Assembly (NCBI GenBank): GCA_002722795.1
Contig: PBMY01000005.1
Coordinates: 1 to 64,000, forward strand
Direction: 5' to 3'
Length of the DNA: 64,000 nucleotides
Source: Crocinitomicaceae bacterium
GTDB lineage: Bacteria > Bacteroidota > Bacteroidia > Flavobacteriales_D > Sanyastnellaceae
Shown here: piece by piece, positions 1 to 5,900 of the stretch
Position numbering within the stretch: the stretch's first letter is position 1
Layout of the letters: each line of letters starts with the position of its first letter
Program-made: the position numbers and the translations under genes
The notes under the pieces: model-generated
Databases searched by the model: none
The model's input: the letters and a program-made list of their open reading frames with translations, nothing else
What the model was told of the DNA's origin: nothing

Positions 1-421
1 ATGAAGACGGAAACAACGTATTCTCTTGGGCTGGTCCTGAGGTAGACCTTGGAACTGCTGAGTTCTGCGTAGGCGGAGACGATCCGGTTGATCCAGTTGA
101 TCCTCCTGCTGAGTGTTCAGACCTTGCTGTAGATATCAGCGGTGGTTCTTGGGCAAGTGAGATTTCTTGGGACATTGCAGATTCTGATGGCAACTTAGTT
201 GCTTCAGGTGTTGCAGGTGCTTCTAGCGTTTGTCTTAATGACGGATGTTACACTGTTACTGGTTACGATGCATACGGAGACGGATGGAACGGTAACGTAA
301 TGAACGTAACTGATGAAGACGGAAACAACGTATTCTCTTGGGCTGGTCCTGAGGTAGACCTTGGAACTGCTGAGTTCTGCGTAGGCGGAGACGATCCGGT
401 TGATCCAGTTGATCCTCCTGC
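1..421 (+). repeat. 312-bp tandem repeat with 109 bp perfectly identical
   Basis: Bases 1-109 are identical to 313-421, an offset of exactly 312 bp (104 codons), so the duplication keeps the reading frame. Identity ends at 110 versus 422. The left boundary is outside the window. Each unit contains one GDGW module plus a DPVDPVDPP linker. Confidence 0.95.
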
Positions 422-3400
422 AGATTGTATAGATATTAGTTACTCGGTAAGTCCTGGTTCTTATCCTTCTGAGGTTAGCTGGGCTATCCTTGATGAAGAC
501 GGAAACGTTGTTGTTGAAGGTGGTGCTGACGAGAGCGGTGTTCTTTGTTTAGATATTGCTTGTTACACATTCATGGGAATGGATTCTTTCGGTGACGGAT
601 GGAACGGCGCTGCTGCTTCTATAGTAAACGGAGGAAATGAAATCCTTGACTTTACTTTCACAATTGGTGATTCTGCTTTTGCTGATTTCTGTTTGAGTAA
701 TGACATCGAAGGGTGTACTGACGAATCTGCTTCTAACTACAATCCAGATGCGACTATCGATGATGATTCTTGTTGTTATGAAGACTTAGTTACTATTAAC
801 CTATACGACTCATTTGGTGACGGATGGTCTTGGGCTGGAGTTGAAGGTGGTATGATCTTCGACGGTACATACTACCCATTCCTTGAAGGAAGCTTAGCTT
901 CTAATGACTTCTGTCTTGCTCCCGGTTGTTACACTGCTGATCTTATTCTTGATTCTTACCCTGGCGAAGCATCTTGGGATGTTGTAGTAGGAGGTGAAGT
1001 AATTGCTAATGGATCTAGTGCAGATTTATTCTTCTCAACAGATCCATCATGTATCGTTGCAGGTTGTGACGACGAGATTGCTTGTAACTACGATCCAGCT
1101 GCTAACGTAAATGATGGTTCTTGTGAATACGTTTCATGTGCAGGTTGTACTGACGAAAGTTCTTGTAACTACGATGCTGCTGCAACTTTAGATGATGGTT
1201 CATGTGACTACTCTTGTGTCGGTTGTATGGATTCTACTGCTATTAACTACGATGCTGACGCTACGATTGCTTGTGAAGACTGCTGTTCTTACTGTGAAGG
1301 CGCATTCGCTGGTTCACTTAACGTAGGCGGTGGTTCTTGGGACGCTGAAATTGGTTGGACTCTTTCTTTAGACGGCGTTGTAGTTGCTTCAGGAGTTGCT
1401 GGTTCAACTGCATTATGTCTTGAGGCTGGATGTTACGTACTTGATATGACTGATTCTTTCGGTGATGGTTGGAACGGCGCTACATACTCGTTCGACGGTT
1501 ATGACGGATCAACTGCATACTCTGGTGACCTTAATAGTGCTGCTGCAGGTGATGGCGTAGCAGTTGGTACAGACTACATCGATTTCAACGGAGGTGCTTG
1601 TACTTCTGGTTGTACTGATGCCGGTGCATGTAACTACGACGATTCTGCTGCGTTTGATGATGGATCATGTGACTATTCTTGTGTAGGTTGTACGAACAAC
1701 ACAGCAGCTAACTACGATCCAAACGCAACTATCGATAGCGGTGAGTGTATTTTCTGTGATTCAGGATCATTCGTAATGACTGTTAGTATGACTGATTCAT
1801 TCGGTGACGGATGGGACGGTGCTGAGTACTTCATTTTCGATCTAAACTCTGGAGCCCAAGTAGCTTCAGGTTCTCTTGACGCAGCATTTAACGGAGATCT
1901 AACTGCAGGTTACGATCTAATTTGTCTTGCTCCTGGATGTTACAATGTTCAAGTCACTGAGGGTAATTTCCCAACTGAGGTAGGAATTTCTCTTACTGAC
2001 CAATTCGGTAATAACTACGGTTCATTCGGTGCAGGCGCAACTTACCCAGTTGATTTCCTACTTACCGGTACATGTGGTTTTGAGGGATGTACTAGCCCAA
2101 CAGCTATTAACTATAATATCTCAGCTACAGTTGATGATGGTTCTTGTCAAGAGCCACCAGCAAACGACCAGCTTGAAAATGCTGAGCCCCTATTCTGTGG
2201 TGCTTACGCTTCAGGTACACTCCTTTACGCTACTGATGACCAAGGATTAATTGGTTCTCAAATTGGTAACGCTAATGTAGCTACTAGTGGTGTATGGTAC
2301 GTATTCAACTCTGACGCTAACCAACAGGTTATCGCTAGCACATGTGATACTCCATCAAACGAAGGAGATACTGATTACACTAGTGATACTAAGCTACACG
2401 TATACACTATGGGAGCTGACGGATCATTAAACGCTATCGCTGGAAACGACGATGGATGTGCTACTGGACTCCTTTCTACTGTTGCATTCAACGCAGTAAC
2501 TGGTTCTGATTATTACATTTACGTTAGTGAGTTCTCTGCGTTCTCTCCTGGAAATGACTTCGTTCTTTCTGTAGAATGTATCGACTGTGGAGATGCTCCA
2601 TCTAACGATGATTGTGATGGTGCTGTTGCTCAGGTAACTGGTGTAACATTCACTGGTTCTACTTGTTGTGCTTCTGCCGAAGAGATGAACCTTGCTTGGG
2701 CTGGATTCGGTACTGCATATGGTGTATGGTTCACTTTCAACTCTTCTGATTACGACACGTTCTACTTCGATGCTACTAACATCTCAAATGAATCAATTGG
2801 TTTTGTTATGATGGAAGGTGGTGCTACTTGTGATGATGTTGTTCCTTTTGTTGGTTGTCAGGTTACTGGTACTTGTGCAGGTTCTGTAGAAGGTTTCCTT
2901 CCACAGCTTACACCAAATACGGATTACTACTTCATTATTTATAATACTGATCCAACTACTTGTGGTGAATTCGAATTCACTACTACTGGTATCAACCTTG
3001 GTTGTACTGACGCTACTGCGAACAACTATGACCCGGATGCTAACCAAGACGATGGTTCTTGTGACTTCGATGGTGTTGTCCCTGTAAACGACATTTGTGC
3101 AGACGCGATCACTCTTGAGTGTAACTCTGTAACAACTGGTTCTACCGGTGGTTCTACTTCTGTGGGAGCTCCTATAGGTGTTGAAGGATGTGAAGTAAGC
3201 CCTGGTACTGGTGTTTGGTACACATTTGTAGGTGATGGACAACTTCATAACCTAAGCACTTGTGGATCAGCTATTGATTCTAAGATTAACATCTACACAG
3301 CTACTGAAGATTGTGGCGGTGGTTCTATTGACACACCTCCAGCTGATGCTTGTGGTGATGGTCTAGTAACTGTAAATCTTTCAGTAGGTGGCGGTACATG

Positions 3401-4997
3401 GGATTCTGAAATTGGTTGGACTCTTTCTGACGCAAACGGCAACGTTGTTGATGCAGGAGGTGCGCCATTCTCAGGTTCTTACTGTCTTGCTGAAGGCGAT
3501 TACACACTTGACATGACTGACGCTTACGGCGACGGTTGGAATGGTGGTGCTGCTACTTTCTCTAACGGACTAGGAGACGTAATCGGTTTCGCTTCAATTG
3601 AGACTGGTGCTGCTGCTTCTGCAGTTATTGCAGTTGGTCCTTATTCAATGGATCCAATCTTCATTGCTGGTGACTTCGCTTGTTTCGCTTCTGCTACTAC
3701 TTCTGACGGAACGGGTGCTTGTTCATTATTCGACAGCGACGATGTGAACTTCGAGTTCGTATCTGAGCCAGGTGTTCTTTACTACGTATATGTAGGTGCG
3801 CAGGATGCTGATGGTAACCCAGTAACTGACGATAATGGTACGTTCGACCTTGTATTCGATTGTACTCCTGTTGTTGAGGGATGTATGAATCCAGCTGCAT
3901 GTAACTATGACGTAAATGCTAACGTAAGCAATGACACTTGTGACTTCTGGTCATGTGTTTGTGAAGGCGAAGGTGTTGCAGTAATGCTTAACATGGTTGA
4001 TGCATTCGGTGACGGATGGAACAACGCAGGTTACACAATTACTGACCTTATGGGTAACCTAGTTGCTGAAGGTTCTTTAGATGACGCTCAGTTCTTCGTT
4101 GATAATGACAACTTCGCTGGACCAGAGAACGGATTCGATATGATCTGTCTACCTGCAGGATGTTACTTAATTAACGTAACACCTGGTGATTGGGCTGCAG
4201 AGGTATCTTGGGATATCATGCTTGAAGACGGTACTTTACTTGCGGCTGGAGGTGCTCCAACTGATAACTTAACTATCTCTGTAGGTGGTGCGGTTTGTGG
4301 ATGTACTGACGCAGGTGCTTGTAACTACGACGAAACAGCTACTGACGAGGATGGATCTTGTGAATACGAGACTTGTGCTGGTTGTACTGATGCTGCATCT
4401 TGTAGCTACGACGAGTCAGCTACTATCGATGACGGTTCTTGTTGTTACTCGAACTGTTTAGATATTCAAATGTTCGATAGCTTCGGTGACGGATGGAATG
4501 GTGCGTCTTATGTACTTACTTCAGTTGACGGGGTAGAAGTTGGAACAGGTACAATTGACGTAGGTTCAAATGCAACTGATTCTTACTGTCTAGCTGACGG
4601 TTGTTACACAATCTCTGTAGACGAGGGTTCATGGCCAACTGAAATTACTTGGAACGTAGTTGGTGCGTTCGGAGGACTAGTTTCTGGTGTAGCTGGATCT
4701 GAGGTTACATTTAACGTTGGTTCTGGTGACCAATGTGTTGTAGGTTGTGATATCTCATGTGCTTGTAACTATGACCCAGCTGCAAATATCTCTGACGTTG
4801 CTCAGTGTGTGTTCGAAGGCTGTGACGGTTGTACTTACCCAGACGCTTCTAACTACGATGAGGCTGCGGTTTCTGATAACGGAACTTGTGAGTTCGATAT
4901 CGCAAACCCATGTCCTGCGGATCTTAACGGAGACGGGTCGATCACTACTGGTGACCTTCTTATCTTCCTAGGTGCGTTCGGTACTATTTGTGAATAA
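1..4997 (+). CDS. Giant cysteine-rich repeat surface protein, 5' end outside window
   Basis: The reading frame is open from base 3 to the TAA at 4995-4997 with no stop, so this is the last ~1,664 codons of a longer gene; the ATG at 300 is internal. Two module types alternate. Eight copies carry a GDGW core (usually SFGDGWNGA) within ~100-residue beta-rich units. About thirteen short units follow the pattern GCTD..A.NYD..A..DDGSC and contribute paired cysteines. In the middle (roughly codons 725-1050) are domains of the 'ND.C..A' secreted type. The extreme C-terminus has an EF-hand/dockerin-like DLNGDGSITTGDLL followed by a final cysteine, and no type A T9SS sorting domain is visible. Asn, Tyr and Phe codons end mostly in C, unlike neighbouring genes, which suggests high expression. 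Extracellular location is inferred from Cys content and repeats; the signal peptide is off-window. Function unknown; adhesin or matrix protein is a guess. Confidence 0.85.
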   Translation, partial: EDGNNVFSWAGPEVDLGTAEFCVGGDDPVDPVDPPAECSDLAVDISGGSWASEISWDIADSDGNLVASGVAGASSVCLNDGCYTVTGYDAYGDGWNGNVMNVTDEDGNNVFSWAGPEVDLGTAEFCVGGDDPVDPVDPPADCIDISYSVSPGSYPSEVSWAILDEDGNVVVEGGADESGVLCLDIACYTFMGMDSFGDGWNGAAASIVNGGNEILDFTFTIGDSAFADFCLSNDIEGCTDESASNYNPDATIDDDSCCYEDLVTINLYDSFGDGWSWAGVEGGMIFDGTYYPFLEGSLASNDFCLAPGCYTADLILDSYPGEASWDVVVGGEVIANGSSADLFFSTDPSCIVAGCDDEIACNYDPAANVNDGSCEYVSCAGCTDESSCNYDAAATLDDGSCDYSCVGCMDSTAINYDADATIACEDCCSYCEGAFAGSLNVGGGSWDAEIGWTLSLDGVVVASGVAGSTALCLEAGCYVLDMTDSFGDGWNGATYSFDGYDGSTAYSGDLNSAAAGDGVAVGTDYIDFNGGACTSGCTDAGACNYDDSAAFDDGSCDYSCVGCTNNTAANYDPNATIDSGECIFCDSGSFVMTVSMTDSFGDGWDGAEYFIFDLNSGAQVASGSLDAAFNGDLTAGYDLICLAPGCYNVQVTEGNFPTEVGISLTDQFGNNYGSFGAGATYPVDFLLTGTCGFEGCTSPTAINYNISATVDDGSCQEPPANDQLENAEPLFCGAYASGTLLYATDDQGLIGSQIGNANVATSGVWYVFNSDANQQVIASTCDTPSNEGDTDYTSDTKLHVYTMGADGSLNAIAGNDDGCATGLLSTVAFNAVTGSDYYIYVSEFSAFSPGNDFVLSVECIDCGDAPSNDDCDGAVAQVTGVTFTGSTCCASAEEMNLAWAGFGTAYGVWFTFNSSDYDTFYFDATNISNESIGFVMMEGGATCDDVVPFVGCQVTGTCAGSVEGFLPQLTPNTDYYFIIYNTDPTTCGEFEFTTTGINLGCTDATANNYDPDANQDDGSCDFDGVVPVNDICADAITLECNSVTTGSTGGSTSVGAPIGVEGCEVSPGTGVWYTFVGDGQLHNLSTCGSAIDSKINIYTATEDCGGGSIDTPPADACGDGLVTVNLSVGGGTWDSEIGWTLSDANGNVVDAGGAPFSGSYCLAEGDYTLDMTDAYGDGWNGGAATFSNGLGDVIGFASIETGAAASAVIAVGPYSMDPIFIAGDFACFASATTSDGTGACSLFDSDDVNFEFVSEPGVLYYVYVGAQDADGNPVTDDNGTFDLVFDCTPVVEGCMNPAACNYDVNANVSNDTCDFWSCVCEGEGVAVMLNMVDAFGDGWNNAGYTITDLMGNLVAEGSLDDAQFFVDNDNFAGPENGFDMICLPAGCYLINVTPGDWAAEVSWDIMLEDGTLLAAGGAPTDNLTISVGGAVCGCTDAGACNYDETATDEDGSCEYETCAGCTDAASCSYDESATIDDGSCCYSNCLDIQMFDSFGDGWNGASYVLTSVDGVEVGTGTIDVGSNATDSYCLADGCYTISVDEGSWPTEITWNVVGAFGGLVSGVAGSEVTFNVGSGDQCVVGCDISCACNYDPAANISDVAQCVFEGCDGCTYPDASNYDEAAVSDNGTCEFDIANPCPADLNGDGSITTGDLLIFLGAFGTICE

Positions 4998-5120: not shown

Positions 5121-5900
5121 TTAGCCCATCCAAGAACCATTATTGATGTCTATCGTAGTTCCTGTAATTGATTGTTGAGCTCCTGAAAAAAGGAATTCTA
5201 CTAATGCGGCAATTTCTGATGGGGTACTCATTCTGCCAGTAGGGACTACTGAGCAAACTTCGGCGCACATTTCATCATAAGTTTTGCCTAAACGATCAGC
5301 ATTGCCTTGAATACTTTCTCTTGCCATTGCCGTGTCTACCCATCCAGGAGCAATTGCATTTATAAGTACGCCTCCACGTGACCATTCAATAGCTAAACCT
5401 CTTACAAGTCCCATGATTGCAGTTTTAGAACTGATATATGCTGTCAGTCCTGGAACTCCGAATCTAGCTAGGCAACTTGAAGTAATAATAATATTTCTGA
5501 TTTCGATTCCTTCTTCTGCAGCCTTATTTAACCAAGGATATGACGCCATGCATGTATTGTATGCTCCTGTCAAATTAATGTCTATGATTTCTTGCCATTT
5601 ATCTAGGTTTCCCCAAATGTTTGGCCCACCAATTCCAGCATTTGCAAATACATTAACTAGAGGATGGTTCTCTAAATCTGCTTTTGAAGAATTTAAAAAA
5701 TTGATTAATTCGTCTTTTTTACTCACATCTAATGAATGAGTAAGATGATTTTTTTTGTTATCCAGCGTGACTAATACGTCTTCAAGTTTTTCAAGTGTAC
5801 GTCCTACAAGGATAAGACGGTTGTTTGGGTTGGAAGCAAGACGCTGAGCTGAGGCTTTTCCTATGCCTGAACCAGCTCCAGTGATAAGAATTGTATACAT
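5121..5900 (-). CDS. SDR family oxidoreductase
   Basis: A 259-residue classical short-chain dehydrogenase/reductase. Visible motifs are the N-terminal NAD(P)-binding TGAGSGIGKA (about residues 7-16), the NAG motif (FANAGIGG), catalytic Ser in ITSSC with Tyr and Lys in AYISSK, and PGWVDT after the active site. Length is usual for the family. Substrate cannot be told from sequence; sugar, steroid and 3-oxoacyl substrates all occur among relatives. The ATG at 5898-5900 is preceded by CACCTTTG four bases upstream, a possible -7 box, so the mRNA may be nearly leaderless. It is divergent from the nitroreductase gene. Confidence 0.9.
   Translation of the reverse strand: MYTILITGAGSGIGKASAQRLASNPNNRLILVGRTLEKLEDVLVTLDNKKNHLTHSLDVSKKDELINFLNSSKADLENHPLVNVFANAGIGGPNIWGNLDKWQEIIDINLTGAYNTCMASYPWLNKAAEEGIEIRNIIITSSCLARFGVPGLTAYISSKTAIMGLVRGLAIEWSRGGVLINAIAPGWVDTAMARESIQGNADRLGKTYDEMCAEVCSVVPTGRMSTPSEIAALVEFLFSGAQQSITGTTIDINNGSWMG

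Follow-up and report, generated by a model that had tools for sequence, protein, structure and literature searches.

A dockerin-related C-terminal tail as a candidate substitute for T9SS sorting domains in a family of the Flavobacteriales

Introduction

What does a dockerin-like tail do at the end of a giant secreted protein in a bacterium that possesses the T9SS? The question is raised by a locus of a Crocinitomicaceae bacterium (assembly GCA_002722795.1; GTDB family Sanyastnellaceae), for which an original prediction, made from the DNA sequence, had proposed that a dockerin-like EF-hand motif stands at the C-terminus in the stead of a T9SS domain and might be either an alternative anchoring or sorting signal or a calcium-binding cap. 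In reviews, surface proteins of the phylum are sorted via T9SS tails (PMC10202324, accessible text), and types A to C of these signals and their shuttles are described in the available portions of PMC12618676 and PMC10202324. The window analyzed here comprises the first 64,000 nucleotides of contig PBMY01000005.1 (C5), read on the forward strand; "the family" denotes the family to which this genome belongs.

Results

The tail-bearing protein and its gene

The window opens with a reading frame of 1664 amino acids whose 5' end is open because the window begins at base 1 of contig C5. The features of this frame and its neighbor are:

3..4997, + strand: C-terminal part of a giant Cys-rich secreted protein; open frame of 1664 amino acids at the contig edge
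138..419, + strand: first complete GDGW module, predicted beta-sandwich (pLDDT 86)
276..287, then from 591, 816, 1461, 1803, 3528, 4008 and 4485, + strand: GDGW motifs 1-8 (motif count)
711..770, then from 1062, 1143, 1221, 1608, 1686, 2085, 3000, 3879, 4299, 4380, 4743 and 4827, + strand: GC..DGSC units 1-13
4827..4889, + strand: final GC..NGTC unit, adjoining the tail (motif count)
4911..4994, + strand: dockerin-like tail CPADLNGDGSITTGDLLIFLGAFGTICE, the last 28 residues; one F-hand with a Cys at either end
4920..4955, + strand: predicted calcium loop of 12 residues, DLNGDGSITTGD, with ligands at positions 1, 3, 5 and 12
5121..5900, - strand: SDR dehydrogenase (named by eye) adjoining the window gene; a neighbor outside the tail system

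The frame contains exactly eight GDGW motifs, 13 units of the GC..DGSC type and 96 cysteine residues, so that the eight modules and about thirteen GCTD...DDGSC units originally reported are confirmed by count. A single C-terminal motif is present as well, but the final Cys ascribed to it is the penultimate residue, the last one being Glu. The giant protein does end in this motif, but it is not complete within the window, its 5' part with the signal peptide lying on contig C11. At the end of that contig, ORF C11:29678-30250 encodes the signal peptide MFNLYSKLTTALAAFAIICSTPVMAQ and a GDGW module like those of the window, and the start of contig C5 itself falls within a GDGW module; the simplest reading is that both ORFs form one gene, broken at near-identical tandem modules. 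Full-length orthologues from related genomes (1551-1606 amino acids) possess a similar signal peptide and the same tail, and their neighborhood, consisting of SDR, YqeY-like, FtsZ and FtsA genes (names by eye), is conserved.

The GDGW module, whose Asp-rich core may bind calcium according to the original prediction, has neither a Pfam match (whole-protein scan) nor a sequence match in the PDB. It is predicted as a beta-sandwich whose best VIA matches are the T9SS domain of NucA (8glk; Z 6.1), the RgpB domain (Z 5.7) and the calcium-dependent CBM 2xhh (Z 5.4); since these top matches tie with transthyretin and others, we claim no kinship. Some of the modules in the window open with the GDGW half and others with a GSW..EISW half, as if circularly permuted.

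An NCBIfam scan of the whole protein found no T9SS type A or type B domain, and genome-wide searches with TIGR04183 and TIGR04131 gave no match within positions 1-4997 of the window, in keeping with the original prediction. The NCBIfam scan likewise found no choice-of-anchor B domain (TIGR04312); we regard a match to PraA (NCBIfam, E 0.012) and one to Mn_catalase (E 0.43, the sole Pfam match listed) as chance. That the organism has the T9SS was correctly foreseen: its genome encodes 53 type A domains above the cut-off of TIGR04183, and SprA is present.

Kinship of the tail with dockerins

The tail shares with the type I dockerins of cellulosomes (PF00404) the F-hand calcium loop D-x-N-x-D-G-x5-D, of which it has ligand positions 1, 3, 5 and 12, and the C-terminal place; it differs from them in having a Cys at both ends and a single repeat, and in that no cohesin match accompanies it in its own genome (83% complete). 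With dockerin_GC (NF041540), a C-terminal dockerin-like domain with an FG-C and C-terminal Cys pattern, it has the C-terminal position and the flanking cysteines in common. The dockerin_GC model spans 67 positions with two repeats, as read from the alignment ranges, whereas the window tail is one F-hand, and in this Flavobacteriales family the tails studied here alternate with sorting domains of the T9SS. A tail with two F-hands from the same genome (C23:26583) scores 31.0 bits with dockerin_GC (cut-off 29 bits) and 24.7 with Dockerin_1 (PF00404; gathering cut-off 22.9); the window tail remains below both cut-offs (22.9 and 17.3, respectively).

When the PDB was searched with a profile of 28 tail units, mainly dockerins and scaffoldins were retrieved, with dockerins ranking first (best E 0.00017). 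A model of a 58-residue tail (pLDDT 85) contains one helix (residues 43-52); among its Foldseek matches the NagH dockerin complex 2ozn_B ranks first but is weak (E 3.0), and VIA gave no match at Z >=2. Among 115 distinct tails, the ligand pattern of the loop is kept in 112, a count in which positions 1 and 12 are fixed by the search pattern, and both cysteines are kept in 110. Judged from these sequence comparisons, the window tail is a Cys-flanked dockerin F-hand in a single-repeat form close to dockerin_GC, and it is predicted from the conserved ligands to bind calcium.

The tail is found almost exclusively at the C-terminus

A tail HMM matched 147 of 4244 ORFs (99 loci), and in 146 of these the match ends no more than 7 amino acids from the stop; the same HMM matched none of the 4244 ORFs after shuffling and none after reversal. 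In a second sample of 72 tail ORFs, from which 43 duplicates and four open frames had been left out, the tail lies within 12 amino acids of the stop in 69 cases and within 13 in 70. The expectation that the motif occurs only at the extreme C-terminus therefore holds for nearly all proteins (146/147 and 70/72), but not for a few exceptions: copies elsewhere are rare and comprise internal ones in L193 and L049, an N-terminal one in L031, and an extra internal copy in L032, which carries the C-terminal tail as well. At locus L193 (G018:C31), the tail follows GC units and precedes an esterase-like domain (by eye), perhaps as the product of a gene fusion. In L031:2578-3816 (G000:C14), a tail-like F-hand devoid of Cys stands straight after the signal peptide, and the C-terminal part of the protein resembles a trimeric head with a coiled coil.

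In the genome of the window, 18 ORFs end in a tail, eight with a single F-hand and ten with two; L031, whose copy follows the N-terminal signal peptide, is the 19th tail ORF. A GC..DGSC unit precedes the single-F-hand tails in 136/136 and 27/32 cases (163/168 in two samples), whereas it is missing in front of the double tails in 8/10 cases of one sample and 28/37 of the second; the samples behind these counts favor related proteins, and the named tail loci, picked by the peptide pattern [NS][PD]CP[AET]D[LI]N[GNE], are biased to single tails. This distribution suggests that the GC..DGSC unit may act in lieu of the first F-hand that single tails lack. At L074, L078, L080, L084 and L085, adjacent genes all encode proteins in which a CGxGTxW motif is followed by a single tail at the C-terminus.

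A signal peptide was called in 83 of 146 tail ORFs, not called in 30, and the 5' end was cut off in 33; the call follows a crude rule, and several of the negatives resemble signal peptides by eye. The passengers are of various kinds and also include choice-of-anchor B, UnbV/ASPIC and lamin-tail-domain proteins, UnbV/ASPIC being matched in the last 220 amino acids of 22 of 67 diverse tail proteins. Within the same C-terminal 220 residues, T9SS models matched none of the 67, and no ordinary T9SS domain thus follows the motif in these proteins, as had been anticipated.

Tail and T9SS type A domain occupy the same slot on homologous proteins

In proteins with a choice-of-anchor B domain (TIGR04312), this passenger domain is joined to a C-terminal ending that can be exchanged; the domain is a carrier and not itself a tail. 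We classified the endings of 90 such proteins, hand-picked from about 150 listed matches (60 by place, 28 of 30 loci after two duplicates had been dropped, and two more); eight of the 90 are cut by a contig or locus end. Within the family, 29 proteins end in a dockerin tail, 21 in a type A domain and ten otherwise, and six are cut off; in the other families, 22 end in a type A domain and two are cut off, so that all closed ones (22/22) are of type A. None of the 82 closed proteins carries both endings, and 12 genomes hold dockerin-tailed and type A choice-of-anchor B proteins on separate copies. Exclusively type A endings were seen in five genomes of the family that are either low in tail counts or sister genomes (G016, G032, G035, G356 and G363), of which G356 and G363 lie outside the tail count made with alignment A1.

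The type A HMM used for this classification was homemade and seeded from closed tails of the other families, which makes the classing of these families by it circular; we therefore re-checked the endings with NCBIfam models. TIGR04183 matched 21/22 of the other-family type A proteins, 21/21 of the family type A proteins and 0/28 of the dockerin-tailed ones; for dockerin_GC (E <= 0.001), the corresponding figures were 0, 0 and 19/28. Two closed proteins (L284 and L217, the latter among the ten with other endings) were left out of the re-check on account of X runs. A third ending of family choice-of-anchor B proteins, covering the C-terminal ~130 amino acids and containing ..LVKIVDQLGREVNEVLGQIVFYIYDDGSAEKVFVVE, is well conserved at L239, L282, L292, L215, L216, L218, L220, L221 and L232 and matches none of the NCBIfam models at E <= 0.01.

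Homologues of the window protein also fall into both groups when inspected by eye: a dockerin tail is found, for example, at G025:C1:2907462 and in G014, G024, G029 and G031, and a type A-like tail at G025:C1:3715228 (1411 amino acids), in G037 and G028, and at G014:C29. The genome of the window itself encodes a type A protein (C26:4846-7062) whose GDGW modules share 77% DNA identity with those of the window. SprA was detected in 37/37 genomes searched (24 from the family, 13 from other families), and the T9SS therefore exists alongside the tails.

The type A domain (TIGR04183) thus has the C-terminal slot of homologous secreted proteins in common with the tail, but it comprises 72 amino acids versus ~28 or 57 of the F-hand tail, and no sequence match connects the two (0/67 and 0/28). 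The T9SS type C signal (NF033708, ChiA) is likewise an additional C-terminal class (PMC10202324, accessible text); at ~100 amino acids it is unlike the shorter tail, and NF033708 was not among the NCBIfam matches of the 67 or the 28 dockerin-tailed proteins. Comparison of homologous passengers hence shows, at the level of sequence, the dockerin tail standing in the place of a T9SS sorting domain, as the original prediction had supposed.

The tail is confined largely to one family

With tail alignment A1 (E <= 0.001), all 37 family genomes gave matches, 1 to 109 each (a single one in G016, G032 and G035), and three of 23 genomes from other families of the order gave one match each. With alignment A3 (E <= 1e-6), three of 296 genomes across the phylum matched: the genome of the window, G018 of the same family, and G044 (one match). 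The named tail loci derive mostly from Flavobacteriales MAGs, some of them labeled Crocinitomicaceae or Cryomorphaceae. Among the remaining labels, "Euryarchaeota archaeon isolate SP189" for L066 (PBNL01000024.1) looks wrong, this contig being equal in length to G012:C24 from a genome of the window's genus, and Rhodopirellula sp. (L129) and Chryseobacterium gleum (L083, L117) are also doubtful. The tag is real, lineage-bound, dockerin-related and C-terminal.

Search for a partner of the tail

The Cohesin model (PF00963) found no match in the genome of the window (83% complete); above the cut-off it matched in two of 23 family genomes (G021 and G022) and in two of 13 genomes of other families. 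By PF00963, known cohesins are thus scarce in the genomes searched and do not track the tail counts, which makes them an unlikely partner of the tail. Nor did the neighborhood yield a recurrent candidate when non-tail ORFs were clustered (741 ORFs at 98 loci, 139 of them tail-bearing): the clusters reflect mainly the orthologous SDR-FtsZ-FtsA set next to the window gene, together with GC-repeat proteins. An expansion of PorP/SprF shuttles was also dismissed, their counts being uncorrelated with tail counts in 37 family genomes (Spearman -0.15, p 0.38); when counted per megabase, they show a weak negative correlation (Spearman -0.36, p 0.03).

Discussion

The tail is probably a C-terminal anchoring or sorting tag that replaces the T9SS domain, and is bound by a receptor, in one family of the Flavobacteriales; its near-constant position at the extreme C-terminus and its replacement of type A domains both point to the anchoring or sorting role that the original prediction had put forward. 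In the working model that we propose, the protein would be exported by Sec by virtue of its signal peptide. Its conserved loop residues would then bind Ca2+ in the oxidizing periplasm or outside the cell, and the conserved flanking cysteines would close the unit by a disulfide. The folded tag might dock non-covalently on a receptor other than a recognizable cohesin, and this receptor may hold the protein at the cell surface or carry it there. More tentatively, and with doubts that outweigh our confidence, one can envision that in this family the T9SS is accompanied by a second display system, in which up to ~100 proteins per genome would carry a dockerin-like tag, gated by calcium and closed by a disulfide, that a non-cohesin receptor reads; in a half-size form of the tag, the GC..DGSC unit would take the place of the first F-hand.

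The tail could instead represent a T9SS export signal of a new class, recognized either by the secretion system or by a shuttle of its own in the manner of PorV for type A and PorP/SprF for type B. It occupies exactly the slot of the type A domain, the two were never seen together, it is nearly always C-terminal, and SprA was present in each of the 37 genomes searched. We nevertheless hold this reading to be rather unlikely: an F-hand of ~28 amino acids is at odds with T9SS domains of roughly 70-100, some copies are internal or N-terminal, PorP/SprF counts do not follow the tails across the 37 family genomes, and the tail is akin to dockerins from bacteria such as clostridia, which are not known to possess a T9SS. 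That the tail pairs with a genuine cohesin too divergent for PF00963 to recognize, as a non-cellulosomal version of the classical dockerin-cohesin pair, is in our estimation unlikely; because it is a special case of the receptor-bound tag favored above, its probability overlaps with that of the latter. The kinship of the tail with dockerins and the Cohesin matches above the cut-off in G021 and G022 speak for such a pair, whereas the genome of the window has no match, 21 of 23 family genomes have none above the cut-off, and matches also occur in other families with no tail or one (G037 and G039).

The remaining possibility, a calcium-binding cap that stabilizes the end of a Cys-rich array and has no sorting role, fits the conservation of the Ca2+ ligands and the GC..DGSC unit in front of single F-hands (136/136 and 27/32). 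However, most double tails lack that unit (8/10 and 28/37) and end unrelated passengers, and the exchange with a T9SS domain on choice-of-anchor B proteins would be left unexplained. The cap, one of the two roles first suggested, has become the less likely one because the tail also ends choice-of-anchor B, UnbV/ASPIC and lamin-tail-domain proteins, and we consider it distinctly improbable.

In a literature search that covered little of the subscription journals, we found no description of a GC-type dockerin, of a choice-of-anchor protein with a dockerin, of Cryomorphaceae dockerins, or of a dockerin-like EF-hand of Bacteroidota. According to the accessible part of PMC6247017, dockerins are lacking from the machineries of two cellulolytic species, and the available text of PMC11557425 holds nothing on this group. 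The dockerin module family is already known; what we did not find described is that it occurs as a single repeat and that a Flavobacteriales family employs it as the alternative to a T9SS tail.

Throughout one family of the order, dockerin-like tails fill the slot of the T9SS tail, with up to 109 matches per genome. The swap of the two endings on homologous passengers offers natural pairs for testing the tag, and should the tag serve as an anchor, an undescribed receptor and display route would exist in these bacteria.
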